Below, in pieces: positions 12,819 to 60,156 of a stretch of 64,000 nucleotides of DNA. Position 1 is the stretch's first letter; each line of letters opens with the position of its first letter. The translations under genes and the position numbers were made by a program. The notes under the pieces are model-generated. The model saw only the letters and a list, made by a program, of their open reading frames with translations. It did not search any database and was not told the DNA's origin. Source of the stretch: Lyophyllum atratum. Taxonomy: Eukaryota > Basidiomycota > Agaricomycetes > Agaricales > Lyophyllaceae. Location: the NCBI GenBank assembly GCA_014905825.1, contig JACGCN010000010.1, forward strand, positions 124,001 to 188,000, written 5' to 3'.

Positions 12819-12821
12819 CAC

Positions 12822-15277: not shown

Positions 15278-15371
15278 CACTGGATGACATACCGACTGCA
15301 CAAGCGAGCCGCACAGATTGCCTAAAACACAAATATGAATCAAAGGCCACTATCATCAGTGAAATAAAGAC

Positions 15372-17908: not shown

Positions 17909-18660
17909 GGTCGTCCGAACAAAGGAATGAGTGATGAGCGACTGATCAGCTAACTGTAAAGGGAGAAAGAAAAAAGTTTAGTCATCACGCTAAAAAAAAA
18001 ATTGGAACATTGACGAAACTCGTGGAACCGGACGACTGAAGTCACCATAGAACTTGATAGAACTCACTAGAAAATGAAGTCAACGCACTAGGCAACTAAG
18101 GCTCCATGGGCTCATGAGCAGTAGAAACTGAGGTTCACATCGCAGGTTCGTCACACCGTACGCGCGAAATCTCGCTGGATGTGTTCAATTGCACATGTCC
18201 TATGCACGGTCCAGAGAACAACAAAACCAGCACTAGTAAGGGCTACCCGCTGCCCACGGCCGAACGAAAAGACTGCAGGTGGACATGAGCCATACACAAC
18301 CAAAGACCATTCAACGCGCATGACAAAATCTCGTGACCACTTCTTATTCCTTCTCGAACTCCTCACTGTCATGGCTGATACAAGCGAACAGAGACCCCCT
18401 CAGTCTCCTCAGTCTTCTGTGCGCGTGCCCCTAACCTCAAGCGGTACAAGCTTGTTCGATGCACATCCATTGTTGTTCAAAATTGTTTGTAATACACAAC
18501 TGACGAGTTTGCAGTCCATATCATGGTAGAAGGCACTAGCAGTGGCGGTACGGTGATATCATCCCAAAACCATACAGGACTTAAAACACCCCCGACTCAC
18601 AAATCGGCATCAAGAATCACAGCATCTTATAAATTGCCAACCAACGTCACAACTCCTCAG
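17909..18660. other. Non-coding stretch
   Basis: Short frames only. It should contain the promoter side of the minus-strand Helitron remnant, but no terminus was recognised. Confidence 0.35.
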
Positions 18661-18867
18661 ACATGGCCACATCAACCAACGTATGTTCCTTCCATGCCAC
18701 CATCCAACACTTACAAAGACCTTCCAAACCAGCTATGCTTTGACATCACGGACTTGCTAGTGACCGAAATGCAACACCGAGGAACTCTTCACTTTCATAG
18801 CATCCAGTGGCTATTGTCCTCAGAGTGCGTCGTAGCAGAACCTCCCAAAACAAGTTGCTGACATTGG

Positions 18868-19079
18868 AACACAGATCCAGTACAGCTGCCGATTCCTCCA
18901 CATCTCCTGACTCAAGCGCCCAACATTTACTGGACTATGTTTCACAGCAAGATGCTGTTCGACAGAGAGCACTCATACATTACATCGCCGAGCATATTGC
19001 CAGACATGGTCGACCTCCTTCGCCGGGCGGTAACACAGTTCTGACCTATGTTACCACTTTATGTACCTGCATTACTTAA
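18868..19079 (+). other. Possible exon of an unrecognised gene
   Basis: After a plausible acceptor (GGAACACAG) a frame reads STSPDSSAQHLLDYVSQQDA and LIHYIAEHIARHGRPPS, a normal-looking helical composition. An ATG at 18663 followed by GTATGTTCC could be an upstream exon, but the phases do not join cleanly. No family recognised. Confidence 0.25.
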
Positions 19080-19350
19080 CAAAATGCCTTCATAAGACGG
19101 GAGATGACTGACTCATGCTCCGTGAGCCCTCATCCTTTCTTAAAAATTTCAGCTCACCCATGACTCAGGACAGCGATAATTAATAAGCACCATTTCCGCC
19201 CGTATATATACCAGGCATACATGATCGAACGTTCAGTTTCATCTTGCCTTTTGACCACCATCATCTATATACACTTGACATCTGCAGTAAAGGTATGAAC
19301 TTGGCCGCGCCTCCAGTTTCTACAATGAGCATTCTGACACTTTCCAGATC

Positions 19351-20535
19351 ATGACTTTCAGCGGCCCAGCTTTGCGTAACCGCCTTCATCGCACACCGAA
19401 CTACATCGCCAAATCTGGATGGACGACGACTGTTGGTTGGAGACATGAGGGGACCGATCTCTTGTTGAAAATCATGTCAACGAAGACTGTAGACCGGATA
19501 CTGCAGTCGGCATCATTGTAGGCCAGGTGTCAGAAGATCGTCTCTATGTTTCTCTGGATGGTAATCATAGTCGTTTCAACGTCCTCGCTAAGGCAAAGTT
19601 CCAACTTACGCTTGAACGCCCTTCCGATCCCGACTTCGCTCAAGATTGGGAACCTGTGATCCGTGCGCTCGAACACGCCCAAAATACCATCGCCAACTCC
19701 TCCGAGAAACGGTACATGATTCTGCGAGAGGGAAACATGCCTAGTATTCTTCCATATTTGAGCAAAAGGTGAGCCTATTATCCTCCATCGATCGTGTACT
19801 CCATACTCAACTGCCATTCTGGTGCCCCTCAACCAGACGATGACGACATTCACCTTTGGCCTGTATCAGCTTCGGACCAAGACGCCTTGCATGCCATAGT
19901 TGACACTCACCGTGTACTCCCTATCGTTTATGATGAGAATGAGAACTACGTACCGCCCCACGAAGTGCCCGCCAAATTGAGGGGTCTCGTCGAGATCCAT
20001 TGTCGCTTCAAGCATTACCACATCAGGCCCAGTGACCCTTCCGAACAGCCGTTCGATTCATTCTCTGCCATGATTGGACAAATCATCATCCACAAGAAAC
20101 TGACGCCGAAGAATCCAAGTCCCTACCGTCAAAGCTTCAAAAGAGGACGGGGACCGTACAGGCCCAGAGCGGATGATGGTCCTTCTCGTAGTGAACAAGT
20201 TATGGCCGCTAATACCTTCTTAGCATCTGGACCAAGCTCGTCATCGGTATGTTCCTTCCCATTCACCCACAATGATCATAATTCTGACTTTTATCCTTCT
20301 ATAGAGTGCGCCCAGCGAGCATTCATCAATTCCGGAATCCAACGAAAAAGCCATTGACGAACATTCCCCTCACACATCACTCTCGGGCACATCTCCTTCG
20401 TCTGCATCCACACTGTCCGCCACCGACGAAACTGAAACATTGCCGTCAGCGCGCGAGGATGGAAAAGGAAAACGGAAAGCTGACGAGTCCATGGGATCCC
20501 AAACCCGGAAACGGAATACGCGTTCCCATACTTAG
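19351..20535 (+). CDS. Unrecognised spliced gene, possible dsRNA-binding-like N-terminus
   Basis: An ATG at 19351 opens SGPALRNRLHRTPNYIAKSG and WTTTVGWRHEG, which resembles the start of small fungal dsRNA-binding domains, though the rest of that fold is not found. A second frame from about 19450 (GIIVGQVSEDRLYVSLDGNH) to LPYLSKR, and a third from about 19800 (DDDDIHLWPVSASDQDALHA, then FSAMIGQIIIHKKLTPKNP and SFKRGRGPYRPR), follow. An intron at 20247-20304 (GTATGT to TATAG) joins GPSSSS to SAPSEHSSIPES and ends at TAG 20533-20535 with a basic nuclear-signal-like tail (KGKRKADES, TRKRNTRS). The joins near 19450 and 19770 do not keep frame by one base, so earlier exon edges are uncertain or the gene is damaged. 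No function assigned. Confidence 0.45.
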
Positions 20536-35968: not shown

Positions 35969-36487
35969 CACAAGGTGCTGAGGACAATATTTTAATGAGA
36001 CAAAACCTGGAAATATTGTGAAGGTGCTCTTTGTGTGATAATACTATGATAAATGAACATATGATAGGCTCAATTCTGTATTTTATCGAAAATCATAGTG
36101 TGAACAAATTCAGAATTCATTCTCTAAAGATATGTAAAAAAACCTTCACAATATTTTCACAATATAATCAGCGAAGATTTCATAATATGTCCACAATATA
36201 GTCAGGTAGTCAAAATATTTTCACCATATCTTCACCATAGTCTGGAATACCTCACTATATTGTGAACATATTATGAAGTGTTCACTGATCATATTGTGAA
36301 AGTATTGTGGATGTTTTTTTACATTTCTTTAGGGAATAAATTCTGAATTTGTTCACACTATGAGTTTCAACAAAATACAAAATTTGCTTTACTATATGTT
36401 CACTTATCATAGTGGTGTCGTGCAAAGAGCACCTTCACAATATCTTCAGGCTTTGTTTCATCAAAATACTGTCCTTGGCACCTTGTG
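35969..36487. mobile_element. Foldback MITE, copy B (519 bp, AGG duplication)
   Basis: Near-identical inverse of 1186-1703: starts CACAAGGTGCTGAGGAC, ends GTCCTTGGCACCTTGTG. AGG at 35966-35968 and 36488-36490 is a 3-bp duplication. It lies between the left TIR and the transposase stop codon. Confidence 0.85.
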
Positions 36488-40685: not shown

Positions 40686-40865
40686 TCATAACATGCTTAC
40701 TTATCATGCAATTTTTGTATTCAGTAAATTTTACTTACAATTTTCTACCTTAGTAATATAGAAATAGCTAGGTATGTAAGTCAAAATATACTGGCCAATC
40801 TCCTTACAAGATTGTCCACCCTCGGCTTAACCACCCCTGTGCTCGCTATCAAGCCCCAAATCCCA
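40686..40865 (-). repeat. LTR fragment of the 58.7-60.2 kb copia family
   Basis: Same orientation and over 90 percent alike by eye to 59968-60150, from CATGCTTACTTATCATGCAA to TCGCTATCAAGCCC. The inner end of the LTR is missing. Confidence 0.85.
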
Positions 40866-41330
40866 ACGCGTCTTTTGCCCAAATCTAACAACCTGCACTA
40901 TTCCTCCGATAGACAGGATGTGTTGAGCATCGTGGAATCCAACTTGTGTCAAAATTTCGATCACTTCCAAATTGGCCAAGCTGTATAATTTTATTTCAAG
41001 GTGCATCTTCTTTCTCGCAATTGGAAGCTGCATCTAGATTATTTTCCAGATAGTACAGTCATTTACGGGTCCTCGATACACCACGGGTCCTCGATACACT
41101 TTTGACACTTGCGTAGTTTCTTCAAACCACTTCAAATCCGTGTACTGTAGTGTTTCGACCGAGTGTTTAGGTCACGCATCACGGAGGGTCGTGAACTGAA
41201 CACTTTCGGTACATGTCACGGCTCACGGTCGGCCGTGAACACTTAGAAAATTAAGACAAAAAAGCAATTTTTTCGGCCACAGGCGCTACCACACCACACG
41301 AATATACATCCTGTTAGTCATTTCAACAGC

Positions 41331-44341: not shown

Positions 44342-44346
44342 GTGTC

Positions 44347-44532
44347 TGTAAGGGCCCCGCCCTTACTGGGCGTTGTTTGGCTTGTTTGGCGACACCTTCG
44401 GTGTCGTCTATAACAGGCCTGTAGTAAACATGTACAAACCAGACACTTGTAACCTCACGTATACGTAGCAAATACCAAGACTGGTCAAGCTTACGTAGCG
44501 TGAACCGCAAGACCCCCCGTAGCACCGCTACA
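44347..44532 (+). repeat. 5' LTR of the Ty3/gypsy element
   Basis: 186 bp, TG...CA ends. It opens with a perfect hairpin (GTAAGGGC-CCC-GCCCTTAC, 44348-44366), has a second at 44390-44406 (CGACAC/GTGTCG) and closes with GTAGC-ACC-GCTAC. The next bases are TTTTTTTAAGCTACCCAGC with no TGG-starting primer-binding site. Confidence 0.95.
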
Positions 44533-44630
44533 TTTTTTTAAGCTACCCAGCTTAGAAGCTACGACGCGACCTACGGCCGAACACACGACGCGACTCACCA
44601 TCACGTCACCCAAAGAAGCACTGAGACCAC

Positions 44631-47600
44631 ATGGCGACGAATCCGGAACCCGACCCGACCACAGGTCCATCAACAACCACACCCACGCAACAGGGTGCGA
44701 CGCCGGTGACGCCCCCTCCGCTACTCGAAGCGGAGAGGCCACTGCGAACGTCACGACTCAAACAAGAAGACACGGATCCGGAAGCAGGGTCGTTGGCTAG
44801 GCCAACGACCTCAGTGCAACCGTCTCGTCCCGGAACGAGTCGGCCGAGGCACCCGGCATTGGAAACGATGCGAAGACAGGCATCGCAAGGACGAACGCTA
44901 GCGCAGGAACTAGCAGACGCCTCTCAAGCCGGTGGTTCAGGAGGCAGAATACGTCTACCTCCTGTCAATATTGCCAGCCCGGCAATGCGATTAGGACCAG
45001 CTCAAGGAGGTACTAGACCCTCCTTCGGCAACTTCTCGAGCGACGACGGCGACCATGGGGGTACACGAACCTCCCATGGCTTTTTCACTCCAGACCCGCG
45101 GGGCCTAGAATCCTCGGATGGAGAGTTCGACGTACTCGAGGCCGACAGGCAGCTCGAACGCGAACAGAGCAGGCTAGACGCCTTTTGGCAGGCTATCGGC
45201 ATGGACAGTATCCGCCGAAGGGAACGACTGCAGGAGTGCGCTCAAAAGCTTCTATCCGTGAAGCATGGGGTGACTCCCGCGAACAGCACTCGCGAGCAGT
45301 ACTTCGAGAGGATGCTCGAAATCTTGCCTAGGGTTATCTACTTGTACAAGCAGAAGTACCCTACGGGAACTTCGTCTATAGCATCATCAGTAATAAATTC
45401 GCCTGCTCCCTCCACTATCCGTCCGTTAGATAAAGGAAAGCAACGGGTGGAACCAGTGACTCCACAGGCCGTAGCGCAAGAAATGAGACAGCCCATAGAC
45501 GAACGGGCTGTCGCAGTATCGATTATGCATCAGTCGCGCCGACCTGATGAAAGTACCAGCGAATATAAACGGCGCGAGCATGCAGCTCGACGTGAAAAGC
45601 GAGTACGCCACTCGGTGACAATCGACTCTCGCGTACCACGAACTAGCGATTCGTCGTATGAACCACCGACGATCGCCAATTTAAAATATGAATCGTATAG
45701 TAGTTCGGATGAGAATGACGGCGACGCTGTCATTCAAATCCCACCAAAGAAGCGAAAGGCACATTTACCGGAAAAACTACTCCCCGATAGCGTACCTATC
45801 GCGGATACTTTCGATGATCGAGTCTCGTATCAACGTTTACGAATCGCCGATATCAAAAGTGGGCAGAAATCCATATATTCGGACCAGGGAATCGTGTTCG
45901 AAGGGCGACAGCCCATAGACGACATGAAGCGACAGTGGGCTAGCAAAACGCAGACCCACAAGTCAGCACGCGGACAAAGCACAGTTCCCGTGCATCAAGA
46001 AGAGTATGCTGAACCTCGTCGATCGACGTCAGCATACACGCACTCAACTGCCAATGGCAGGGGTTTTTCGATGCCCGCACCGAATAGGCGAACCGCCGAT
46101 ATCGCTGACGGGATACAGCAGAATGAGGAGCGCTATCGCGCACTCATTCATGAACGCATTAGCAAGTTGATCTTCATGCGTTTGGGAACACGGCTACACC
46201 TACCCGAAGGGTTAAAGCCTCGACGAACCGATTCAAAATCGGTCGGAACTTATTCCGGCAGTCCGAAGTTCCAAGAGTTAGAAACCTGGCTTCACAGCCT
46301 GGTCCTCTTGATGGCAGTATCCAGACTAGGCGGTCCTGATCTCGAACAGGAACGCGTAATCATGGTACTAGAGTTTTTGGATGGCAAAGCCAAACGATGG
46401 TTTGTGCGGCATGTCATTCATGTCAATCGAACTCAAGAAGAATGGAAGTTCGAAGAGGTTATATTCGGTCTCTATGATCGATTTATCCTACCGTCGACCA
46501 TGCAAGACGCGCGTGACGAATTCAACGCCGTCTCATATAAACAGCATGCCGACGTTCAAGACTTGTTCGACACCCTTGTCGATCATTCACAGAATATGGC
46601 CGTTAAGGTTACGGACTGGATGTTCTGTGACCGATTCGTGTCAGCAATGTCGACGGATATGCGCAATCATCTATTCGATGAAGGATTGTCGCCTGAAGTC
46701 AACACAGCCGAGGAGTTCTTAGCGCTTGCAAAAGCCTATGAATCTGCTAAGAAGACGGCTAAATATTATGACAAGTCGGCTAGTGTAACCCGACAGCGGT
46801 ATACTACGCCTGTTAGGGAAAACCAGGAGCATCGCGAAGGTGCTCCTAGGAAAGTCTTTGTACGACGCGGCGACTACAAGAAAGGATTATTCCGATCTAG
46901 TCGACCGACGCCGTTCAAGAAGCGAGACGATTATCGCAAGGATAATAAGGTGGACCCGAAACCACCTTATAAGTCCAACGACAATAAGCCAAGCTATCAG
47001 CCGATGGCTAAGATGGATAAGCCAAACCATCAGAAGACCGCAGGTGGATCTAAGTGTTTCAACTGCGGACGAACCGGTCACTTCGCGAAGGAGTGTCCAG
47101 ATCCGAAGAAGCAGCAGCGAGCACACATGCGCGCCATGCGAACGGCTGTAGACGGAACCGAAGGCGAATCGGATAACGACGACTCGGAATCTGCGCACGA
47201 TGCAGATGCCGAAGATGATGACCTCGATCGTCCTGAGTCCGAACTGGGCGAACATGACGACGATATGATTGAAGTCGAAGTATTCGATTACGACGAGTCA
47301 GAGTCTGAGCATATGCACGGAATCTGGGAAGGATCGCCGACCAATGGCGAGGCGTCACAACCGGAATTCTCGGATCGAGTCTTTGGAATTTCGGAGGCAC
47401 CGCCGCCGAAAGACAAGAAGACGAATGACAAAGACAAGGTCATTCGAATGCGAAAGGTCCAATTACACGCAGGGAAGAATAAGATACAACGACCTATCTA
47501 CCCTGCGGAAACCAAAGAATGCCTGGCTACCTACACCAACGTAGGTGGACAAGAGGCATGGACGTTATGGGATACCGGTAGTTCTACTACTGGTATGACA

Positions 47601-47939
47601 CCTGCATTCGCGCAGGTGTCGAAGATAAAAGTTTACCCATTGGAGAACCCGATGATCCTGCAACTAGGAACAACGGGTAGCCGCGCTTCGGTCATTTATG
47701 GTACCGAAGTGCAGATTGAAACGGCAGGGTTCAAAGGGCCAGTGTACATGGACCTGGCGAACTTTGACCGATATGATGTAATTATTGGCACACCATTTAT
47801 GCATGCCAATAATGTCATCCTGGACTTCAAGAACCACCAGGTGGTAGTCAATGGAGTCGCGACGCCAGCTGTGCGCGTGGCGTTAGAAGATACGGACGGC
47901 CGAGCTCGTCGGTATCGATCCATTGAGAAGCGCGAGTGA
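44631..47939 (+). CDS. gag: Gag-protease polyprotein
   Basis: 1102 residues from the ATG at 44631. A long disordered N-terminus (Pro/Thr/Arg-rich) precedes a retrotransposon Gag core at about residues 520-700 (FQELETWLHSLVLLMAVSRL, GKAKRWFVRHVIH, TMQDARDEFNAV). A basic tail leads to one CCHC knuckle, CFNCGRTGHFAKEC, near residue 808, and an acidic stretch. The C-terminus is an aspartic protease with LWDTGSSTTGMT near residue 980 and DVIIGTPFMHANNVILDF. The gene ends at UGA 47937-47939; Pol follows in the same frame. The coding DNA contains many perfect inverted repeats. Confidence 0.93.
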   Translation: MATNPEPDPTTGPSTTTPTQQGATPVTPPPLLEAERPLRTSRLKQEDTDPEAGSLARPTTSVQPSRPGTSRPRHPALETMRRQASQGRTLAQELADASQAGGSGGRIRLPPVNIASPAMRLGPAQGGTRPSFGNFSSDDGDHGGTRTSHGFFTPDPRGLESSDGEFDVLEADRQLEREQSRLDAFWQAIGMDSIRRRERLQECAQKLLSVKHGVTPANSTREQYFERMLEILPRVIYLYKQKYPTGTSSIASSVINSPAPSTIRPLDKGKQRVEPVTPQAVAQEMRQPIDERAVAVSIMHQSRRPDESTSEYKRREHAARREKRVRHSVTIDSRVPRTSDSSYEPPTIANLKYESYSSSDENDGDAVIQIPPKKRKAHLPEKLLPDSVPIADTFDDRVSYQRLRIADIKSGQKSIYSDQGIVFEGRQPIDDMKRQWASKTQTHKSARGQSTVPVHQEEYAEPRRSTSAYTHSTANGRGFSMPAPNRRTADIADGIQQNEERYRALIHERISKLIFMRLGTRLHLPEGLKPRRTDSKSVGTYSGSPKFQELETWLHSLVLLMAVSRLGGPDLEQERVIMVLEFLDGKAKRWFVRHVIHVNRTQEEWKFEEVIFGLYDRFILPSTMQDARDEFNAVSYKQHADVQDLFDTLVDHSQNMAVKVTDWMFCDRFVSAMSTDMRNHLFDEGLSPEVNTAEEFLALAKAYESAKKTAKYYDKSASVTRQRYTTPVRENQEHREGAPRKVFVRRGDYKKGLFRSSRPTPFKKRDDYRKDNKVDPKPPYKSNDNKPSYQPMAKMDKPNHQKTAGGSKCFNCGRTGHFAKECPDPKKQQRAHMRAMRTAVDGTEGESDNDDSESAHDADAEDDDLDRPESELGEHDDDMIEVEVFDYDESESEHMHGIWEGSPTNGEASQPEFSDRVFGISEAPPPKDKKTNDKDKVIRMRKVQLHAGKNKIQRPIYPAETKECLATYTNVGGQEAWTLWDTGSSTTGMTPAFAQVSKIKVYPLENPMILQLGTTGSRASVIYGTEVQIETAGFKGPVYMDLANFDRYDVIIGTPFMHANNVILDFKNHQVVVNGVATPAVRVALEDTDGRARRYRSIEKRE

Positions 47940-48024
47940 CTCCATGGCCCGGAAGAAGGATACGGAGGCTCTATACGAAAAGCCACCGTAGTCGATGATG
48001 ACGAGCCCGGTACAGAGGGGCTCG
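47937..48024 (+). promoter_or_regulatory. Candidate stop-codon readthrough site between Gag-PR and Pol
   Basis: UGA followed by CUC separates Gag-PR from Pol with no frame change, and no other stop lies between. A stem-loop at 47961-47990 (TACGGAGGCT with AGCCACCGTA, one mismatch) starts 21 bases after the UGA, and a second perfect 7-bp stem lies at 48002-48024. UGA-CU contexts are known to be leaky in eukaryotes; use here is inferred. Confidence 0.5.
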
Positions 48025-51000
48025 CCATTAACAGTTTACCAAAAGACCATGGGGCCCTTTTGTTATCGGAAGAAGAGTTTCAGGAAACTCTGAAAGAGGG
48101 GTATCCGGCATTACCCCCTAAAGAAACGACTAGGAAATCAGCGAAAAAGGAAGAGCGCCGCTCGAAGGGGCTCAACCAACAAAAACCGAAAATAAAAAGG
48201 AAGTCAGATGAAGCACAACCAGTGGCTTCGTCAAGCAAAGTGACCTTGGATACGGTACCCGAACCGTCTTCAAGCGTATTACGCGATCGCCTCAAAGAGA
48301 TGATCGATAAAGACTTAGAAAACCAGGACGAAAAATCACAGCAGAATACTGAGAAGAGTACGCGGTCCTTCTGGGACAGACCAACACCAAATCCACATTA
48401 CGAGTGGATGTATGATCACCGCATGCCCGCGGAATGGAACGAAGTAGTCGCCTCCATGAGGGCCTATGAAGGACAGCATAAGCAGCTGCCTGGAGAAGTT
48501 TATCGGAATCCCGAACCCGATGAAATCTCTGAGGTTATGGACTTCACTGAAGCCAAACCGAAGCAGCCTTATGTGCGACCGAAGTATCGATTACCAGTAC
48601 GCGATGAAGGGGACTTTAGTCTTCATAAATTGCGTGCTCGGTTCGATATAGATTCAACAAAACGGGCTGAAGCATCTATTCGAGCTGCTCATACCTTACG
48701 GAAAGGCAAAGGAAAAGCTGACGATAGTCGTCTATCCGAAGAAGACTATCCTAGGCTTAGACAACAATGGCACGATGAATTTGAAGACATGGTCAGCGGT
48801 ACGAAGCCGACCTTACCACCATGGCGAGAGGTTAATCACGAGATTAACCTCATTGATGAATCAAAACAATATCAATACCATGCTCCAAGATGTCCCATGT
48901 CTCTTCGTGATGAATTTCATGCGAAGATTAATAGATATGTGGATGCTGGGTGGTGGGAACACCGGCCAGTGAAACAAGCAGCCCCGCTGCTATGTATTTC
49001 GAAGAAAGATGGATCGCTACGTACGCCGCTCGATGCGCGGCAACGTAACGACAATACTATAAAGGATGTTACACCTCTACCCGATCAAGAGGTCATCCGT
49101 GAAGATGTCGCCCGAGGAAAAATCCGTTCAAAAATCGACTTGACGGATGCGTATGAGCAAGTTCGCGTACTGCTCAAAGATGTATGGAAAACGGCGTTCG
49201 CAACGATCGTCGGGACATATGTCAGCAATATCATGCAAATAGGAGACTGCAATGCTCCTGCGACGTTTCAAAGATTGATGACATCCATCTTTCGAGACGT
49301 TATTGGAAAATTTATGCACGTCTACCTTGACGACATATTCATCTTTTCGGAAACTATTGAGGAACACGAGCAACATCTCCGAGTTATTTTCGAACGACTC
49401 AGAGAATATTCGTTGTATCTAAAGTGGAAGAAATGCGAATTATATTCAGACCGAGTTGATTGCCTTGGTCATATTATCGACGACCAAGGTATCCATCCCG
49501 ATGCTGACAAGCTAGCGCGCATCCGGGACTGGAGAACACCTCGGAATTACAACGATATTCAGAGGTTTGTAGGACTCGTGAATTATCTGAGCAGTTTTCT
49601 GCCAGATATTTCCGCCTACACCGGACCCCTTATGTCCATCACGCAGAACGGGTCTTCATTCTATTGGAGACCTATTCATCAGCGATGTTTTGAAATGATC
49701 AAGCGCATCTGCTGTAAAACACCAATCATTCAACCCATCAAGCCGAAGAACGACATACCGATTTGGGTGATATGCGATGCATCCAAATCAGGTGTCGGCG
49801 CCATGTACGGACAAGGGCCGACGTGGCTCGAATGCCGACCCGCTGGATTTATGTCCAAGAAATTCACCAGCGCTCAGCAGAATTACGCGGTACACGAACG
49901 CGAAACTCTGGCGATACTGGAATCTCTAATGAAATGGGAGGACAAACTTGTGGGATATAAGATCCACATCATTACCGACCATAAAGCTCTGGAGTTCTTT
50001 CGAACTCAAGGAAACCTTACTCCACGTCAACGGAGATGGATTGACTACATGGCTAGATTCGACTTCGACATTACCTACGTCAAAGGCGACTTGAATAAAG
50101 TGGCCGATTGCTTGTCTCGCTATTTCGAAAGCGATACAGCCAATGATGTACATGATATACATGACTATGTGAATGTCGATGCCCGAATCGACCCTACTGG
50201 AGAAGATCTACCACCTCCACGATATAACGAAGTAGTGGACAAAGTAGTTGAAATGCGTTCTATGCACGAAGCCCAACTCCGGCGTAGTAAACGCTTCCAA
50301 GAGCAGCAAGAAGATCGCGACTTAGAAGCGCAGATTATGAATGAAGCTACTCCTGGAGCGTCCCAACGACATCAGGAACCGTCGATACGCGAGGGTTCAG
50401 TCAACATGGACGCAAGCGAGACTATGACTCTGGGAGAAGCACTTATGGGCAAGGCTACCGCGGCCTCTCCACCAGATTTAGTCGACAAAGCCTTTCGTAA
50501 TCGTATTGCGAGGGGGTATGATGAAGATAAACTCTTCAACTATATTAAAGAAAAGCCTGATCGATATAAGCACTTCAATATGAAGAACAACCTTATATGG
50601 ACTAAGAATCTCGCGGGCGAATCCGTTCTGTGTGTACCACGTATACCAGAACTAACTACGTCCATCATTGAACAAGCACATCAGACGCTTGGGCATTTCG
50701 GAGACCAACGTACGTCCGAGTACGTTCGTCGATGGTATTGGTGGCCAAGCATGTCTAGAGACGTGCGGGAGTTCTGTCGCACATGCCAATCATGTCATGT
50801 TACGAAGACATCAAACCAGAAACCCTCGGGACAGCTCCACTCGCTGCCCGTACCAACAAAACCTTGGGACTCCATAGGAATGGACTTCGTTGGACCATTC
50901 CCGGAGTCTAAAGGCTTTAACTATCTATGGGTTATAATTTGTCGGATGACCAGCATGGTGCATCTGTTACCTGTAACCACGAAGAACACCGCAGCTGAAC

Positions 51001-51965
51001 TTTCATGGATTTACCTTCGTGAAATAGTAAGATTGCATGGTCTACCGAGCTCAATCGTTAGTGATCATGATTCGAAGTTCACCTCTCGATGGTGGCGCGA
51101 ACTCCACAAGATGATGGGTACAAAGCTACTCATGTCTACGTCCTTCCATCCTCAGACGGATGGTCAGACCGAACGTGCTAATAGGAATGTGGCCCAGATC
51201 TTTCGAGCCGTGGTACGACACGATCAGAAAGACTGGGTTGACCGTGTTCCGATGAGCGAATTTGCGATCAACGCTAGCATATCGGCCACGACGAAGTTTG
51301 CACCGTTTGAACTTAACGGTGGATATATGCCGTCAATGATAAAGGAGATTCGCTCCGATGAAGTGCTACCTAAAGGAATCAAAGCTTATGCCGAACAAGC
51401 TCTGAGGAATTTAGCAGAGGCACATGATAATATTATTGAAGCTCGCGTCTTTCAGACAGCGTACGCAAATACGAAGCGAGCTGCAGAACCGCAAATTAAG
51501 AAAGGGGACTTGGTTTACCTATCAACCAAGAACCTCAATTTGCCAAAAGGACGCGCAAGGAAGTTATGTCCCAAATACGTTGGGCCGTATAAAGTATTGA
51601 ATGCTATTCCGGCAAAATCTACATATACATTGGAATTGCCGACAGCCTTACAGGCGCGGCGGATACATCCTACGTTCCATGTGTCATTACTACGGCCTTA
51701 TAATGCTAGTAATGATGCGCTGTTTCCCAATAGGGATCAACCGGAGCCCTATGACTTTGGTGCTCCCAACGACCAAGAATGGTTCGTTGATGAAATCTTG
51801 GGTCACCGATGGACCGAAGATAAGAAATTGGAATACGAAGTCAGGTGGAGTCTGGGAGACACCACCTGGGAACCTCATGACGGGTGCAAGAACCTTGAGG
51901 CCTTAGGCCGGTACCTTGAACTGCAAGGTGTCAAGACGCCAAGGGGACTCGCGAAACGCAAATGA
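47940..51965 (+). CDS. pol: Pol: reverse transcriptase, RNase H, chromodomain integrase
   Basis: Open from directly after the Gag UGA; the first possible independent start inside is a TTG at 48060, so it is probably made as a Gag-Pol fusion. RT: SKIDLTDAYEQVRV (first Asp) and HVYLDDIFIFSE (YLDD). RNase H: ICDASKSGVGAMY, VHERETLAI, ITDHKALEFF, KVADCLSRYF. Integrase: zinc-binding QAHQTLGHFGD ... CRTCQSCH, then core MDFVGPFPES, VSDHDSKFTS, QTDGQTERANRNV (D, D, E). A GPY-like region (KYVGPYKVL) and HVSLLRPY precede a C-terminal chromodomain, WFVDEILGHRW ... YEVRWSLGDTTWEP, placing it with chromoviruses. All catalytic residues are present. Confidence 0.95.
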   Translation, partial: LHGPEEGYGGSIRKATVVDDDEPGTEGLAINSLPKDHGALLLSEEEFQETLKEGYPALPPKETTRKSAKKEERRSKGLNQQKPKIKRKSDEAQPVASSSKVTLDTVPEPSSSVLRDRLKEMIDKDLENQDEKSQQNTEKSTRSFWDRPTPNPHYEWMYDHRMPAEWNEVVASMRAYEGQHKQLPGEVYRNPEPDEISEVMDFTEAKPKQPYVRPKYRLPVRDEGDFSLHKLRARFDIDSTKRAEASIRAAHTLRKGKGKADDSRLSEEDYPRLRQQWHDEFEDMVSGTKPTLPPWREVNHEINLIDESKQYQYHAPRCPMSLRDEFHAKINRYVDAGWWEHRPVKQAAPLLCISKKDGSLRTPLDARQRNDNTIKDVTPLPDQEVIREDVARGKIRSKIDLTDAYEQVRVLLKDVWKTAFATIVGTYVSNIMQIGDCNAPATFQRLMTSIFRDVIGKFMHVYLDDIFIFSETIEEHEQHLRVIFERLREYSLYLKWKKCELYSDRVDCLGHIIDDQGIHPDADKLARIRDWRTPRNYNDIQRFVGLVNYLSSFLPDISAYTGPLMSITQNGSSFYWRPIHQRCFEMIKRICCKTPIIQPIKPKNDIPIWVICDASKSGVGAMYGQGPTWLECRPAGFMSKKFTSAQQNYAVHERETLAILESLMKWEDKLVGYKIHIITDHKALEFFRTQGNLTPRQRRWIDYMARFDFDITYVKGDLNKVADCLSRYFESDTANDVHDIHDYVNVDARIDPTGEDLPPPRYNEVVDKVVEMRSMHEAQLRRSKRFQEQQEDRDLEAQIMNEATPGASQRHQEPSIREGSVNMDASETMTLGEALMGKATAASPPDLVDKAFRNRIARGYDEDKLFNYIKEKPDRYKHFNMKNNLIWTKNLAGESVLCVPRIPELTTSIIEQAHQTLGHFGDQRTSEYVRRWYWWPSMSRDVREFCRTCQSCHVTKTSNQKPSGQLHSLPVPTKPWDSIGMDFVGPFPESKGFNYLWVIICRMTSMVHLLPVTTKNTAAELSWIYLREIVRLHGLPSSIVSDHDSKFTSRWWRELHKMMGTKLLMSTSFHPQTDGQTERANRNVAQIFRAVVRHDQKDWVDRVPMSEFAINASISATTKFAPFELNGGYMPSMIKEIRSDEVLPKGIKAYAEQALRNLAEAHDNIIEARVFQTAYANTKRAAEPQIKKGDLVYLSTKNLNLPKGRARKLCPKYVGPYKVLNAIPAKSTYTLELPTALQARRIHPTFHVSLLRPYNASNDALFPNRDQPEPYDFGAPNDQEWFVDEILGHRWTEDKKLEYEVRWSLGDTTWEPHDGCKNLEALGRYLELQGVKTPRGLAKRK

Positions 51966-52019
51966 ACGCGTCGCGGTCATGTGCGTGTCACGTGACACAT
52001 CAATTGCTGAGATCAGTTG

Positions 52020-55000
52020 ATGGCGCCGCAAACCATAATTCGGCTAAGTCCTCTTTCGATCGACACCCACAGTCGACACGTAGCACACCCATCCGATCCA
52101 CCTCGATCCAATGGAACAAGACGGAGCCAACCAGCAAGAGCAAAACCCGAACGCCTGGGGCCCACACGGTGGCCCCGGTGCAGCATCAGGCTCGGGAACG
52201 AGCCTTATGGGGGAGAAGGGGCTCAGGGTCGTGTTTTCCCAGAAAACACGGCGCAACAGCCACCTGTCCAACCCGCCAACGCGTACGTCCCATACGGGCA
52301 ATATCAAAATCCGAACCCAATGCAGATGCCGACGGCTGGTTTCATGAACCAGCCGTACATGCAACAACCGATGGGCGGATATGGTCACCCGCAAATGACC
52401 TATCTTCCCCAACCAATGTACTTTCAACCTCACCCGCAGCAACAACAGCAACAACAACAACAGCAACAGCAACAGCTCATGGGGCAGCCGCCCTATGTCC
52501 AACCTCAGACCACCGGATTTTCAGGGAATCCGGTGCCTTACCAGCAACCTGGGCAGGACTGGCACGCGCAGCCGGCCCTGCAATCAACTCAAGGAACATG
52601 GCCAGCGCAGCCGACCGACCGAATGGACGACACCCCGGATCAGGGACGCCAGGGATCGCTACCGGAGCGTCCCATGGCCCCGATACCACCAGCACCGGTG
52701 CCTCGAGGGGATATTCCTCCCCCTCAAAGAAAAGGACGTGAGGACGACCGCACGGCGTCGTCCTCCTCCAGAACATCCAACAGGGAAACACTCATTCGAG
52801 ACGCCGCTCTCGAACGGGTATTCCGACGACTTGAGCGCGCCGGATTTGCATCCGATATGGTGCAGTTCCTGCGAAACGATGACGGAACGGCGCAGGTCGT
52901 CGTTGGGATGCTCCTCGACGATCTATTGGAAGCACGCGAACGCGTGACCGAGCTCGAGCGAAGACTCGCTCGGCAGGAGTCCCTAGACTATGGGCGCGCC
53001 TCACACGAGCAGGCAGGCCCTAGTAGGAAAAGATTGGCGATGTCTTCTCCGGATCGCGGAGGAGAATCTGCATATCGCCCACCGAAACGTCAAGAAGTTG
53101 AGAGCCTCGACCAAGCGAGGAGATCACACTTCGATGACCGACGACCATACGAGCGTCGCGGTTATCCAGAGCTTCCGTACGAAGAGCGACGGCGTCCACG
53201 AGACGCGCGTCGAGATGGTCCAGGACGGCCTGATCGGCCTGTAGGCCCGGAGCCTACAAGGCGCGGACGGCAGCCATCCCCACTAGCGATGGATAGGCAA
53301 CCGTCTGCATCGGAATCAGCGGACGTCCAGAGTACGTCTGGGGCATCTGCGACGCCCCAGACAAAACTATCCGATGTTCCTCCTCCACCTGAGCCAAGGG
53401 TACAGGTCCCGAATCGTAGAGGTGTCCAAGAGACCATAACGATTCGTATCCCTGCGGTCGCGGTACGGCCACCGGCTCCTACACCGCAACCGCCATCGCC
53501 ACCCCGGCATCAGTACAAACCAACTGGGGACACCGATTATGGCGAGTCCTCAGGCGGTTCCGATGACGAGGACAAGTTGACCTCTCGTCAACGAGAAGAC
53601 CGGGATCGCAAACGCGAAGAGAAAGCGGCAGAGCGTCGCCGCTTAGCTCAGCTCGAACGACCGGGACGCATCCCTGACAACGTCGGGGTTGTGTTCCGCG
53701 AGAACCGATGGGAGAGGGATAATTCATTCCTCGGCATGTTAGATTATAATATCTATCATTCTCCCTACAGCAATCGTGTGTACGCGGCGCACGAAGCTGC
53801 GGCCGCGTCACGATTTGAACTAGCGAACAATCGGGAGTACGTCCCCCAAGGACGACTCTACAGCTTGTTACCACGAGGATTCCCCATGAACCCCCGCCAA
53901 TTGAATCAATTGGTCAACCTCGTGCAGTTCCCGAAGAAGAACTTCCCCCGAGAAGATCGCCTGCAGGCGTATAAACTGCTGAAGGAATTCCTCCGCCTAG
54001 CATTGTGCCTACACTCGAGTTGGCACGATGCTACGTTGAATGCGGCATGGGAAAATCCTGATATCCCGCGCCTTGACAATCCATTCCCCAAGGACGCGAG
54101 GTTGAACTCATTCCCTCCTGTTGAACGCCCAGCTGGCGTTCTCAAGACCAAATCGCGCAAGTCTGGCCATGGTGCCGGATTGCCGCCTCCGACGAGCGAC
54201 GAGGCGTTCAATATTGAACGTTGGGCTCAGCAGGTCGCCCACCATGGGCGACCTGGCTCAGTTAATTCCTTCTCCGGCATCGCAATCGATTATGCGATGC
54301 GCGTTTACTACCCATCGATTTTTGGGTTTCGATTACTGTCTGTACTACTGCCGTCCGCGACGGCAGATGTACAATGGTTCACACGAATCTTCCTGGGCAT
54401 ACTAGCCCGACCCGGATTGTATGCTGAGGCCGTAGCGTCATACTACGACGCACATCCGGATCGTCCTCATAGGACAATCACGGCCCTCCCAGGAGAAACA
54501 GTGACCGTGAATCGGTTCGTTCGACCAGACGGTGTCGAACGCCTTACCGACTTACATGTGCTAGAGCACATGATTAATGTTGGAATACCCATCGCATGGG
54601 TAAACCATTCATATGCTTACGCCAACCGTTGGTGGGAGCACCACTACCCTTACAACGCACAGGGTGGTCCTCCCTTACTAGAATTCTTCCGAACGATTGA
54701 TGACCAACGTATCGAGCGTCTCCATCGTCTCGGGGTGCCCCAGACCATACCCGAATGGTCTGGATGGCGCCATCCAACCCAAGCCGACATTACGCGCATC
54801 CAAGCGCTAATGCGGCATGAATTTGATACACAATCTATTGACTGCTTTTCAAGTCGTCAATGGGTACGTGTTGGGGCTGACCCCCTATTTACCCTACTGC
54901 CGCGGCGTGAAGATTACACCGCGGCACAACGCAACATGATTGGGTCAACGTCATCCGTTAACGACGTTGCAATGACACCCGTCGACAACCCTGCCCTCCC

Positions 55001-55226
55001 TCCAGCGACTTCGACCACAGTCGCAGGGACTACTTCAGTCCCTGAAACCATTGTGGATCCCGCGACGGACCTTAATGGGCCCCTCGCGTCTGCGGTTACC
55101 ACAACCAGCCCTGGTACGGACGGAACACTTCCGCCCAACCAGGAGTCGACGCAAGGATCAACAAGCATGGAGGTCATACCAAATCCGACCGATGACATGC
55201 TTGAGGATACCGCGATGAAGGAGTGA
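52020..55226 (+). CDS. ORF3 downstream of pol, about 1068 residues, unrecognised
   Basis: ATG at 52020, 55 bases after the Pol stop and in the Gag/Pol frame; three UGA codons (51963, 51993, 52008) lie before it. Regions: Gln/Pro/Met-rich N-terminus with a polyglutamine run (52438-52475); charged coiled coil with TLIRDAALERVFRRLERAGF and LEARERVTELERRLARQE; Arg/Pro-rich disordered centre; a compact-looking region at about residues 560-970 (VVFRENRWERDNSFLGMLDY ... FGFRLLSVLLPSATADVQWF ... WWEHHYPYNAQGG); disordered Thr/Pro/Ser tail. No signal peptide, transmembrane helix or catalytic motif is evident, so the env-like position does not make it an envelope protein. The first 58 or so residues look out of frame; the +1 frame from ATG 52111 (MEQDGANQQEQNPNAW) looks more natural. 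Confidence 0.75.
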   Translation: MAPQTIIRLSPLSIDTHSRHVAHPSDPPRSNGTRRSQPARAKPERLGPTRWPRCSIRLGNEPYGGEGAQGRVFPENTAQQPPVQPANAYVPYGQYQNPNPMQMPTAGFMNQPYMQQPMGGYGHPQMTYLPQPMYFQPHPQQQQQQQQQQQQQLMGQPPYVQPQTTGFSGNPVPYQQPGQDWHAQPALQSTQGTWPAQPTDRMDDTPDQGRQGSLPERPMAPIPPAPVPRGDIPPPQRKGREDDRTASSSSRTSNRETLIRDAALERVFRRLERAGFASDMVQFLRNDDGTAQVVVGMLLDDLLEARERVTELERRLARQESLDYGRASHEQAGPSRKRLAMSSPDRGGESAYRPPKRQEVESLDQARRSHFDDRRPYERRGYPELPYEERRRPRDARRDGPGRPDRPVGPEPTRRGRQPSPLAMDRQPSASESADVQSTSGASATPQTKLSDVPPPPEPRVQVPNRRGVQETITIRIPAVAVRPPAPTPQPPSPPRHQYKPTGDTDYGESSGGSDDEDKLTSRQREDRDRKREEKAAERRRLAQLERPGRIPDNVGVVFRENRWERDNSFLGMLDYNIYHSPYSNRVYAAHEAAAASRFELANNREYVPQGRLYSLLPRGFPMNPRQLNQLVNLVQFPKKNFPREDRLQAYKLLKEFLRLALCLHSSWHDATLNAAWENPDIPRLDNPFPKDARLNSFPPVERPAGVLKTKSRKSGHGAGLPPPTSDEAFNIERWAQQVAHHGRPGSVNSFSGIAIDYAMRVYYPSIFGFRLLSVLLPSATADVQWFTRIFLGILARPGLYAEAVASYYDAHPDRPHRTITALPGETVTVNRFVRPDGVERLTDLHVLEHMINVGIPIAWVNHSYAYANRWWEHHYPYNAQGGPPLLEFFRTIDDQRIERLHRLGVPQTIPEWSGWRHPTQADITRIQALMRHEFDTQSIDCFSSRQWVRVGADPLFTLLPRREDYTAAQRNMIGSTSSVNDVAMTPVDNPALPPATSTTVAGTTSVPETIVDPATDLNGPLASAVTTTSPGTDGTLPPNQESTQGSTSMEVIPNPTDDMLEDTAMKE

Positions 55227-55612
55227 AAGTACGGGTAGGCGACCGACGGTTTAACCGTCATTGCGGTCCTCACTGACCCAGTCATGGCGCTGCGCCTATC
55301 GATACTCGAATCGATGGGCTTTTTTGGACATTATCGACTCATGCCCAAGGATTACTCGAACTATCCTTGGGTTTCTTGTCAGTACATAAGGACGACGGGT
55401 CCTCACTTCATGCTACGATCAATATGCCATACTGATCGTATACTTTACTTTACAAAGTTACCGACTATACGCAGTCGGTACACTTTCAGAACCATGCCTA
55501 GGACGACGGGTCCTAGGCCCATATATCATCAACTAGTTATTGTATAAGTCTGTCCTACAGACTAATACACGTATATCTATATCCTCTCTGGAAGATTGCT
55601 GCACGCAATCTT
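55227..55612 (+). other. Hairpin array in the 3' untranslated region of the Ty3/gypsy element
   Basis: Consecutive perfect or near-perfect stem-loops: 55245-55259 (7 bp), 55294-55319 (10 bp with one G-T), 55344-55371 (9 bp), 55389-55403 (5 bp), 55414-55440 (8 bp), 55459-55480 (8 bp), 55496-55518 (9 bp), 55547-55563 (6 bp), 55592-55612 (8 bp). The loop GACGG occurs twice and ACTCGA occurs in two loops. The last stem abuts the polypurine tract. Confidence 0.85.
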
Positions 55613-55623
55613 AAAGGGGGGTA
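55613..55623 (+). promoter_or_regulatory. Polypurine tract
   Basis: AAAGGGGGGTA directly before the 3' LTR, as expected for the plus-strand primer of reverse transcription. Confidence 0.8.
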
Positions 55624-55809
55624 TGTAAGGGCCCCGCCCTTACTGGGCGTTGTTTGGCTTGTTTGGCGACACCTTCGGTGTCGTCTATAACAGGCCTGTA
55701 GTAAACATGTACAAACCAGACACTTGTAACCTCACGTATACGTAGCAAATACCAAGACTGGTCAAGCTTACGTAGCGTGAACCGCAAGACCCCCCGTAGC
55801 ACCGCTACA
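55624..55809 (+). repeat. 3' LTR of the Ty3/gypsy element
   Basis: 186 bp, identical by eye to 44347-44532; followed by the GTGTC target duplication. Confidence 0.95.
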
Positions 55810-56813
55810 GTGTCACAGGTGAGTCCGTCGATCCCATGCTCTTTCGACCACCACTCATATGCGTCACGAAGCTCCTTCGGAATTGGATTGCGGAATGAGT
55901 CTCCAAAGCGGTGCATGCCCACCTCCGTGTCGATCACAATCGCGACCCAGTGCGGCAACGATTCCTCTGACCCGAGGTCCCCAAGGTGACCAACAGTCAC
56001 CAATGACATCTTCCGCTGGAACAGACGTTTCCCGAGTGAGCGGAGCCATCCGAAGTCGGCTCTTGTCTGGTACGTCACACTCCCTGCCTTGAAGCCCTGT
56101 AGGACCTTCGTTGTAACCTCGACCCCCTCTATACAGGACTTCGTGGACCAGCTCGCATGGCTAAGCACCTTCGCCCGAAGGAGTTCCAGGAGGTCATTCA
56201 ATTGCGAATCAGACAGCCAGTTTGTGCCTAGAAACCGCCACAATGTATGTATCCGTTCACCATCAGAAAGGCCGGACGGCTTTATCACGTTCCAAGGTAT
56301 GTCGTTCAGCAGAAGACTTGTTTCCTCCGCTAAACCCCGCCGCTCTGCTGACCTATTCTGACGTGTCTGCTTGAAGACCCAATCTTTACATGTAGCCCAT
56401 CGTTTGACGTGGTCTCGAACATCAAGGATCTCATTCCAGTACGTCACTGTCCAAAGCGGGAATGATGTGGACACGCTGTCATGAAGGTGAGCATACCAAA
56501 CAGATGTAAACCCATCAAGCCATGCCTGACGGCTAGATTCGACTAGCCTCCGGATTGTTCGGTGGTCGGGGATACGAAGGCGGCGGAGGCGCATGATGTT
56601 AGTCCCTGTCATCGGGGTCGATGGTTCCTTGCTAAAGAAGATGCCGAGGTTGGATGGTGGACCAGTGTCAGGGCTAGCAGTCGGGATGGGGAGGGAGAAT
56701 TCGGACATGGCTGTCAAAGACATGGTGGAAGGGGGAAGGATCTTCGCGTAGATATCACAAGGAATTTTGAATTCAACTTTTGCATCGTGCTCGAGTACTT
56801 CAATGGAAGCCAT
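55810..56813 (-). pseudogene. Ulp1-like protease part of the fusion gene (5' piece)
   Basis: ATG at 56813. The first 250 or so residues have no recognised domain. SLPHWVAIVIDTEVG contains the candidate catalytic His (residue 288) and HRFGDSFRNPIP the Asp (residue 305), in the order and spacing of C48 Ulp1/SENP cysteine proteases. The frame is broken at 55810 by the Ty3/gypsy LTR; with one GTGTC copy removed it reads straight into LLTSHQLDSHACGLFAHNAL at 44341. Ulp1 enzymes process or remove SUMO-like modifiers; what this one cleaves is unknown. Confidence 0.8.
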
Positions 56814-58667: not shown

Positions 58668-60156
58668 TGTTAGAATTTCGGGCTTGATAGCGAGCACAGG
58701 GGCGGTTAAGCCAAGGGTGGACAATCTCGTAAGGAGATTGGCCAGTATATTTTGACTTATATACCTAGCTATCTCTATATTACTAAGGTAGAAAATTGTA
58801 AGTAAAATTTACTGAATACGAAAATTGCATGATAAGTAAGCATGTCGTCATGCCTGATTAACTAGTTTCTTCAAGACTCTCTGTGGCCCCGGAATCTCTA
58901 TCATTGCGCGTCGTCAAAGCTCTCCCTGGCTCTGGAAACCATCAACTTCTATCATCGAGGCTCTCCCTGGCCTCGGGATACGTCATCAAGAAGTGATCTC
59001 GGGATCAGAAAGCATAATCGTTGTCGGTTGCGATGTGCGCATTGTCGGGCGTGTCAGTCTTCTTTGTGTCATCATCTGTTCCTGTCCTGTCCTTCTTCGC
59101 GTCTCGGCAATTTCGGGCTAAATGCCCTTTTTTCCCACAAGTGTAACAGGTGATGTTTGGCGAATATTTACCGACCATTGCCATATCGGTGAGTTTTTGG
59201 TGGCTGAGGTGATTGTTCACGTTCCGTCGGGCTTCTTCATCAATCAGGGTGCCCGTGACATCAGAAACAATGTTCAAGTCGTCCATTGTAGCGCTGAGTG
59301 AGGTGGCCATACTAGACCAGGTTTCATTGAGGTTCATGATGAGCACATCAATAATCGTGCTATCCTCGATTTTGACGCCGATTGATTTGAGTTGTGCAGC
59401 CGTCCTGGTGACACTGTTTACGTAATCTTCGATGGGTTTGTCGGTATCGTGATGGGCACCGTAGAACTTGCGCATCAGGGCAATTCGATTGGCGCGGGAA
59501 TTCTTCTCGTAGATCTTTTGGAGTTTCTTCCATGCATCCACGCCATCAACGGCATCAATAATGTATTGATACTGACTGGGGTCTATTGTCAGTCCAATAG
59601 CCGTTAGGGCGTCCTCCGCTTTGCTCTCCCAATTGGATTGAGATTCGTGTGTCGTAGGCTTCTCTTTCGTCATAATTTCCCAGCACTCAGCCCTGCGTAA
59701 TACCATCGACATCGCGAACTTCCAATCTTGATAGGTGGTGATGTTGCCATCAGAATTTGATGCGCCAAGCTTCGGGACGGAGTTCAAAAGGTTATTGATG
59801 TTTTGGCCGGTCATCGCGGATAGAGATGTAGAGGGCGACTAGAGAGCAGAGGGTGTGTGCAGGCTATACGAGATTGTGTTGGATATATTTTCTTTCTATT
59901 TTCTAACTCTTACTATAGTGTCATGCCAGATTAAGGGAGAGTGTTGGAATCTCGCCCGCTAGTTAATCAGGCATGACGACATGCTTACTTATCATGCAAT
60001 TTTCGTATTCAGTAAATTTTACTTACAATTTTCTACCTTAGTAATATAGAGATAGCTAGGTATATAAGTCAAAATATACTGGCCAATCTCCTTACGAGAT
60101 TGTCCACCCTTGGCTTAACCGCCCCTGTGCTCGCTATCAAGCCCGAAATTCCAACA
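58668..60156 (-). mobile_element. Gag-only copia element with inverted LTR copies
   Basis: The outer ends are TGTTAGAATTTCGGGC (58668) and, at the right, GCCCGAAATTCCAACA (60156), bordered by CCTTT at 58663-58667 and 60157-60161, a 5-bp target duplication. The left LTR copy (58668-58865) is the inverse of the right one (59943-60156, 214 bp) and lacks about 17 terminal bases on its inner side. Between them is one Gag gene on the minus strand and no pol. It must rely on other elements to move. Confidence 0.85.
59005..59814 (-). CDS. gag: Copia-type Gag (UBN2-like) with zinc knuckle
   Basis: 269 residues, ATG at 59814. The N-terminal fold matches copia Gag of the UBN2/DUF4219 kind (YQDWKFAMSMVLRRAECWEI, DAWKKLQKIYEKNSRANRIA, IEDYVNSVTRTAAQLKSIG, STIIDVLIMNLNETWSSM). 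Near the end, CYTCGKKGHLARNC is a CCHC nucleic-acid-binding knuckle. The frame ends at TGA with no protease behind it, so it encodes only the coat protein. The intact frame suggests recent mobility. Confidence 0.88.
   Translation of the reverse strand: MTGQNINNLLNSVPKLGASNSDGNITTYQDWKFAMSMVLRRAECWEIMTKEKPTTHESQSNWESKAEDALTAIGLTIDPSQYQYIIDAVDGVDAWKKLQKIYEKNSRANRIALMRKFYGAHHDTDKPIEDYVNSVTRTAAQLKSIGVKIEDSTIIDVLIMNLNETWSSMATSLSATMDDLNIVSDVTGTLIDEEARRNVNNHLSHQKLTDMAMVGKYSPNITCYTCGKKGHLARNCRDAKKDRTGTDDDTKKTDTPDNAHIATDNDYAF

Follow-up and report, generated by a model that had tools for sequence, protein, structure and literature searches.

Background

Genome-scale ordered RNA structure (GORS) has been linked to the persistence of RNA viruses, and its purpose is unsettled. 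In the sections of PMC7642675 that describe it, GORS is a free-energy excess arising from several hundred consecutive stem-loops at poorly conserved positions; single mutations there hit paired and unpaired sites equally often, and repeated ones are concentrated at the unpaired sites. The minimum folding energy differences (MFED) given there are 15% for SARS-CoV-2, 7.5–10.7% for hepatitis C virus and 23.4% for the highest vertebrate RNA virus. For long terminal repeat (LTR) retrotransposons, the passages of PMC11381356 on selective 2'-hydroxyl acylation analysed by primer extension (SHAPE) maps of the yeast Ty3 and Ty1 RNAs assign up to 30% of the RNA to stable structures and place a well-folded core close to reverse transcriptase (RT), and describe no genome-wide saturation with hairpins. 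Here, an element dense in short perfect hairpins is described at positions 44347–55809 of a 64,000-nucleotide stretch of the Lyophyllum atratum genome (the window; GenBank assembly GCA_014905825.1, contig JACGCN010000010.1, positions 124,001 to 188,000), which by its sequence is a young Ty3-type (SH3_Tf2-1) LTR retrotransposon.

The element resembles the GORS viruses, as far as the sections of PMC7642675 describe them, in a whole-length free-energy excess over order-shuffled controls, in consecutive stem-loops and in poor positional conservation. Rare variants of the window's own family (F1) are likewise not kept out of perfect stems, and common ones are under-represented there. However, the host molecule here is a fungal LTR retrotransposon. 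Its MFED of ~21% is above the 15% of SARS-CoV-2 and near the 23.4% maximum quoted from PMC7642675, the shuffling and fragment steps not being identical, and perfect stems make up a larger share here than in the RNA phages examined. The likeness to Ty3 and Ty1, again from the passages of PMC11381356, lies in an LTR-retrotransposon RNA with dispersed structured regions, but here the excess is present in every fragment and the F1 perfect stems are sparsest in Pol. It is probable that this is GORS in a young Ty3-type retrotransposon, with the hairpins maintained by weak selection on the sense RNA. The literature searched, which comprised titles and the starts of abstracts with subscription journals mostly outside it, gave no account of GORS in any LTR retrotransposon. 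GORS would here be found in a reverse-transcribing element, without a surrounding animal immune system.

Perfect stems in the window element

An earlier note on this DNA, made by eye, had listed 15 perfect stems with arms of at least 9 bp and a 16-bp palindrome at 54205–54220; the arm lengths, loop lengths and coordinates of all 15 proved exact, and the palindrome is perfect. When stems with loops of 0–14 nt were counted in 44347–55809 and in 30 dinucleotide shuffles, the excess over chance that the note had claimed was recovered, with 15 stems against 0.6 at arms of at least 9 bp. The corresponding counts were 65 against 7.9 for arms of at least 7 bp, 33 against 2.0 for at least 8 bp and 5 against 0.1 for at least 10 bp. 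The codon-preserving shuffles that had been named as a check (40 for each open reading frame (ORF), arms of at least 7 bp) gave 16 stems against 2.9 in Gag, 10 against 2.3 in Pol and 26 against 3.4 in ORF3. The note had not noticed such density in neighbouring elements, and here five other ORFs in the window had 0–3 stems against 0.7–2.3 in codon shuffles, and 65 of the 114 stems of at least 7 bp in the window fall inside this 11.5-kb element. The hairpins depend on sequence order and codon choice, not on composition.

Complementary 7-mers occurred at ~5.5–8.5 per 10,000 position pairs at loops of 3–14 nt and at 1.4–1.9 at loops of 15–30 nt, with a background of 0.3–0.6 beyond. Eight RNA phages gave a matching fall-off with loop length, and 86 perfect stems against 18.8. 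Regular spacing of the hairpins was not found (coefficient of variation 0.83–1.07), and no loop 3-mer stood out in F1 and the related families F2 and F4 together. The description of the stems as sparser in RT held for F1, with 4.8, 2.7 and 7.5 stems per kb in Gag, Pol and ORF3, and was weaker in these relatives, at 4.3, 4.8 and 6.2 in F2 and 6.5, 4.6 and 6.8 in F4.

Related families in the same genome

Searching the 64.8-Mb assembly (151 contigs) with Pol gave at least 48 matches, with 36 of 306 candidates scored. Thirteen full copies were read, together with partial copies: seven of F1 (Pol 98–100%), three of F2, two of F3 and one of F4. All 13 have 5-bp target duplications, that of C75 being taken from the flanking sequence, and the LTR pair is identical in ten, with one difference in C90 and in C67 and four in C2b. 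The window copy and C1a were counted as LTR-identical, as their listed differences lie outside the LTR (before its start in the former and past its end in the latter), and the working copy of C75 carries a few extra bases at its 3' end.

Stems of at least 7 bp with loops of 3–14 nt exceeded shuffles 8.3–12.2 fold in each of the 11 F1, F2 and F4 copies. The corresponding ratios were 2.1 and 2.2 in the two F3 copies, 2.4 in phage MS2, and 1.4 and 0.8 in two further Ty3 elements from the same assembly. Hairpins are spread over the untranslated parts as well as the three ORFs, and are found in three related families within one genome. Between families, ~68–71% of Pol residues and 63–67% of codon-aligned bases are shared, and F2 joins F4 in the unrooted family tree, which sets F3 among the strongly folded families unless the root lies on the F3 branch. 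Hairpin positions mostly differ between families, with Pol stem centres common to two families numbering 3 of 11 for F1 and F2, 2 of 19 for F2 and F4, and 1 for other pairs. The most frequent loop length is 3 in F4 (with many of 1–2) and 6–8 in F2, and F1 has a broad range of 3–14.

The F1 copies differ from one another by 1–4% and are strongly mosaic; for example, the window copy and C88 show 0–2 differences per 500 alignment columns at 4500–6500 and 21–45 at 10500–12333. This mosaicism suggests frequent recombination between co-packaged RNAs.

Relatives of the element were not found among the viral_contigs scanned. Ty3 elements (L001, L002 and L003) were seen in three genome_contigs binned as Giesbergeria, Acidobacteria and Erythrobacter metagenome-assembled genomes, and are probably eukaryotic contamination of these bins; they have 6, 4 and 9 stems of at least 7 bp against 5.4, 2.9 and 2.1, respectively.

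Folding energy and strand

The MFED, computed on 350-nt fragments against shuffles, was 20.6% in F1 (32 of 32 fragments positive), 21.2% in F2 (31 of 31) and 21.4% in F4 (32 of 32), or ~21% with 95 of 95 fragments positive when pooled, and 12.0% in F3 (31 of 33). The two other Ty3 elements of the genome gave 4.0% (17 of 22 positive) and 5.8% (18 of 22), the contaminant contig L003 4.9%, and window positions 1–20000 1.0% (10 of 20). Among RNA phages, the values were 30.6% for MS2, 33.3% for Qbeta, and 21.5% and 18.6% for two others. Against codon shuffles, sense-strand z ranged from -7.3 to -14.7 across the nine ORFs of F1, F2 and F4 and from -4.6 to -8.7 in F3, with values of -1.2 and -2.9 for the two other Ty3 elements; the replicase genes of MS2 and Qbeta gave -14.6 and -7.4. 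The predicted fold of the 3' untranslated region had an energy of -146.6 kcal/mol compared with -101.4 kcal/mol in 100 shuffles (z -8.36). These values suggest that the element RNA is kept tightly folded, at a strength comparable to that of some RNA viruses.

Sense exceeded antisense MFED by 4.2 points in F1, 6.0 in F2, 1.2 in F4 and 3.6 in F3. The antisense strand is also strongly folded, because any perfect hairpin pairs on both strands, and its folding was weaker than that of the sense strand in F1 and F2 by codon-shuffle z. In 120-nt windows, sense z was lower by 0.47 (standard error 0.14) in F1, 0.45 (0.15) in F2 and 0.10 (0.17) in F4.

Variation among copies

The proteins are under selection, with ratios of non-synonymous to synonymous polymorphism (pN/pS) of 0.23–0.37 in singletons and 0.07–0.18 in shared variants. 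In F1, shared variants avoid perfect stems and singletons do not. For stems of at least 6 bp, 45 of 191 singletons were inside (31.7 expected from local density) compared with 52 of 424 shared variants (78.4 expected; Fisher p 0.0007 against singletons), and for stems of at least 7 bp the counts were 37 of 424 shared and 29 of 191 singleton variants (p 0.024). In these shared-variant tests L019 and L022 were placed with F4, and columns were cut at 6000.

Stem-breaking singletons occurred near the neutral rate (arms of at least 7 bp; 20 against 17.5 in F1 and 22 against 23.4 in F2), and stem-making ones near the random rate (7 against 4.6 and 5 against 6.2; with arms of at least 6 bp, 14 against 8.8 and 13 against 12.2, together 27 against 21.0). 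The F3 and F4 singleton counts were not used in this test, and L021 has a divergent segment. Mutation therefore erodes the stems, and a slow force, most simply weak selection, restores the balance. As a tenfold excess of 7-bp stems arithmetically needs a bias of ~1.4-fold per pair, weak effects are expected. The element has the features by which GORS is recognised in sequences, that of variation in part: it was found for the F1 perfect stems, was not significant by the balanced fold measure and was absent in Pol alone.

Three comparisons were set aside. A two- to fourfold protection of arms over outside sequence in pairs of copies was rejected, as requiring a perfect stem in one copy removes the breaks of that lineage from the count, and about half the rate is therefore expected under neutrality. 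The ratio of unpaired to paired sites (0.56 invariant, 0.67 singleton, 1.04 shared) has the same bias and was replaced by the allele-balanced measure. The comparison of G.U with A.C mismatches as a test of selection on RNA looked at first to speak against RNA, and was treated as neutral because eight RNA phages give nearly the same centre-pair ratios (GT 2.9-fold, AC 3.0-fold).

Several observations weigh against selection for folding of the sense RNA, and the selection signal among copies is modest. With alleles treated alike, the paired fraction in the predicted F1 fold was 0.500 for shared variants and 0.553 for singletons, a difference in the same direction that was not significant (p 0.11 for sense and 0.085 for antisense). 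When Pol changes were polarised by an older copy, stems were broken by 6 of the 114 shared ones, and the arm fraction predicts 6–7. The three copies of F2 give no shared class, F4 has just 14 shared variants, and no stem avoidance was seen among F2 and F4 singletons. Shared sites lie in recombinant blocks, and the p values are therefore too small. Near-perfect stems show no preference for G.U over A.C, a result that the centre-pair test also gives in RNA phages; one-mismatch stems had GT:AC counts of 29:18 in the phages and 31:45 in F1, F2 and F4 (p 0.027), and in F1 the G.U:A.C ratio was 10:19 for singletons, compared with 18:15 for shared variants (p 0.13). The two other Ty3 elements are also sense-biased, by 2.0 and 2.2 MFED points, and sense z in the 120-nt windows of an unrelated Ty3 was lower by 0.37 (standard error 0.16), indicating that the bias is partly general; in F4 the antisense codon-shuffle z was slightly stronger than the sense in all three ORFs. 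F3 is equally young, with identical LTRs in both full copies, and has far fewer perfect stems, so high density is not needed for movement. Finally, shared Pol stem centres were above chance (0.03–0.2 expected; 3 against 0.13 for F1 and F2), and some positions are therefore conserved.

Origin and maintenance of the hairpins

The hairpins would be maintained by weak selection acting on the sense RNA in favour of local pairing overall. Any hairpin would then suffice, and single hairpins would come and go as density persisted. A compact RNA with little single-stranded sequence may, speculatively, be less reachable for small RNAs, antisense RNA and nucleases and easier to pack into particles, and occasional template switching could provide some of the perfect stems as raw material.

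Under a purely mutational account, the polymerase would switch template within near-palindromes during reverse transcription or host replication, rewriting one arm as the exact complement of the other, and hairpins would accumulate without use. Template switching patterns that create and maintain RNA hairpins are described in PMC8794818, in passages that read an inverted loop as the mark of interstrand switching. One such event was found. The LTRs of C2b (F2) differ by four adjacent bases, TTCC in one and GGAA in the other; these form the loop of a perfect 9-bp hairpin, and the loop is exactly inverted between the two LTRs. With the flanking bases included and up to one mismatch allowed, the genome has GGAA at a single site and TTCC at eight, so GGAA is the new state. 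The inversion is the one clear case of template switching, either during reverse transcription or afterwards within the chromosome. In addition, a C.A mismatch in five F1 copies at column 7016 is fully paired in C88 and in C90, in each through a different arm, four pairs exist in two Watson-Crick types, and the stems are unusually perfect, with Watson-Crick centre pairs in 321 of 534 (F1, F2 and F4) compared with 142 of 288 in the RNA phages. The loop inversion and stem correction resemble those of PMC8794818; however, the cases in its passages are rRNA and microRNA genes, and here there is one LTR loop inversion and no stem-making excess. A drive sustaining a tenfold excess should make as many stems as are broken, yet stem-making singletons in F1 and F2 (arms of at least 7 bp) numbered 12 against 10.8 at random, and stem-breaking ones 42 against 40.9. 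Loop inversion was clear at one stem only, with none in F1 across 1321 non-independent comparisons, and multi-base arm repairs were few, a count made with no null comparison. Moreover, F3 has a 12% free-energy excess despite few perfect stems, and the sense-strand bias of F1 and F2 is not predicted by mutation. The route exists, but the events seen do not establish it as the cause of the density, and this account is considered unlikely. Somewhat more doubtful still is a combination in which RT writes perfect hairpins by repeated template switching, with a loop-length ruler specific to each family, and selection keeps them, the process being turned down in F3. If true, this would be a self-folding genome, built by a mutational engine, kept by selection and switched down in a sister family.

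The hairpins could instead act as DNA, in single-stranded cDNA or as cruciforms, by pausing RT, promoting strand switching or binding protein. The near symmetry of G.T and A.C mismatches (31 and 45 in one-mismatch stems of F1, F2 and F4; 30 and 28 among F1 and F2 copies), the nearly equal MFED on both strands of F4 and the strong mosaicism of F1 are in keeping with such a role, although the centre-pair test of these mismatches fails to separate RNA phages too. Given the excess of sense over antisense folding in F1 and F2, and the lower frequency there of loops of 0–2 nt than of 3–14 nt, as in folded single strands (RNA would give the same), a role as DNA appears improbable. That the hairpins are a side effect of composition, codon use or the usual background of inverted repeats is hardly credible, given that the signal is removed by dinucleotide and codon shuffles and is absent or nearly so in neighbouring ORFs and the two other Ty3 elements. 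The background is slightly raised: with loops of 3–14 nt, window positions 1–44000 have 39 stems against 27.5 and the 51.5 kb flanking the 13 copies 54 against 33.6, so a slight stem excess is present in the remaining genome too.

Of the two causes that the earlier note had offered, selection for RNA structure is thus the better supported, by a free-energy excess that is present in every F1, F2 and F4 fragment and survives codon shuffling, by the stronger sense strand in F1 and F2 and the resemblance to RNA phages, and by the avoidance of perfect stems among shared but not singleton F1 variants. Template switching was borne out once, by the exact loop inversion, and a few stems are repaired or changed on both sides; as the main cause it fails, as singletons make stems at chance and break them 3.5 times as often. 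The comparison of sibling copies that the note had proposed showed arms changing together in a few stems, including the four pairs in two Watson-Crick forms, and a mismatch turned into a full pair at column 7016 in C88 and C90, with no excess of stem making overall. One fungal genome with three strongly folded families, a weaker sister in F3 and nearly unfolded Ty3 elements offers a ready-made comparison that could test the role of folding in evasion of RNA silencing, packaging or stability.

Structure of the element

The Ty3-type (Metaviridae) assignment follows from the LTRs, target duplication, polypurine tract and protease-RT-RNase H-integrase order. The LTRs, target duplications, ORFs and 3' untranslated region are on the forward strand. 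The 5' LTR (44347–44532, TGTAAG...GCTACA) and 3' LTR (55624–55809) are identical over 186 bp, indicating a very young element, and are flanked by the 5-bp target duplication GTGTC (44342–44346 and 55810–55814). Two perfect hairpins lie within the 5' LTR, at 44348–44366 and 44390–44406, and more full-length LTR copies occur elsewhere in the genome at 95–98% identity. ORF1 (44631–47939, 1102 amino acids (aa)) encodes Gag with a CCHC zinc knuckle and aspartic protease. ORF2 (47940–51965) encodes Pol with RT, RNase H, integrase and a Tf2-1-like SH3 domain (SH3_Tf2-1, 59.7 bits, cut-off 30), and has a sub-threshold match to a chromodomain (PF00385) at the integrase end (20.1 bits, cut-off 25.1). 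The body of ORF3 (~1069 aa) is at 52017–55226, and the 3' untranslated region (55227–55623) contains hairpins in series and is terminated by the polypurine tract AAAGGGGGG (55613–55621).

Among individual hairpins, Gag includes perfect 10-bp examples at 44788–44810, broken in one of the seven F1 copies, and at 47781–47813, perfect in the window copy only and with one A.C mismatch in the six others. The arms of a 10-bp hairpin in Pol (48828–48851) cover mostly conserved residues (EVNH / EINL). A perfect 11-bp hairpin lies in ORF3 (54231–54255), and perfect 9-bp hairpins lie in the 3' region at 55496–55518 and at 55344–55371, where one pair varies on both sides among F1 copies and some carry a C.A mismatch.

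The sequence TTTTTTTAAGC was seen immediately 3' of the 5' LTR (44533–44543) in 13 of 13 copies, one of which has an extra T. To our knowledge it is not an obvious complement of a tRNA 3' end, a statement made with no search for a tRNA or self-primer match, and priming may therefore be unusual in these elements.

The Gag-Pol junction

Gag and Pol are in one frame, separated by a single TGA stop (47937–47939 in the window copy, and at the same place in F2, F3 and F4) after which the frame is open; counted from its first start, ORF2 covers 48060–51965. This arrangement is present in 11 of 13 copies, C1b and C2b lacking a long Gag frame that extends to the stop. The stop is followed by CTC in F1 (as in the window copy) and F2, CTA in F3 and CTG in F4. 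As UGA CUA G is described as a high-readthrough motif in a passage of PMC12233894, Pol is probably made by readthrough of the TGA stop. The Candida albicans element Tca2, in the part of PMC2194720 that describes it, is likewise a fungal LTR retrotransposon with a UGA codon between gag and pol, and its junction by itself gave no readthrough in Saccharomyces cerevisiae. In contrast to Tca2 as described there, CUN follows the UGA here in all four families, and the pol is of Ty3 type.

ORF3

No Pfam match was found for ORF3. Relatives occur across all four families at 34–39% identity, and also in Lyophyllum shimeji and Tricholomella constricta. ORF3 is under purifying selection (pN/pS 0.18 in shared variants), and that on contig C97 is identical over 1016 aa to L. 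atratum protein P0122. The start region used by sibling ORF3s was seen at ~52111–52230 of the window copy in a different frame from the ORF3 body, and copies with an open ORF3 are present elsewhere in the genome. A 1318-aa L. shimeji protein annotated as 'putative tannase and feruloyl esterase' (P0001) consists of ORF3 and an unrelated tail (Pfam PF07519), a fusion that is probably a gene-model artefact or due to a nearby insertion.

Other repeats in the window

Two ~519-bp sequences, at 1186–1703 and 35969–36487, are ~96% alike and match their own reverse complement at 82–83%, as expected of a repeat of the fold-back type. At 58668–60156, 198-bp inverted repeats (99.5%) surround a 269-aa ORF (59005–59814), possibly forming a terminal-inverted-repeat transposon, and a further copy of the 198-bp repeat is located at 40691–40877.

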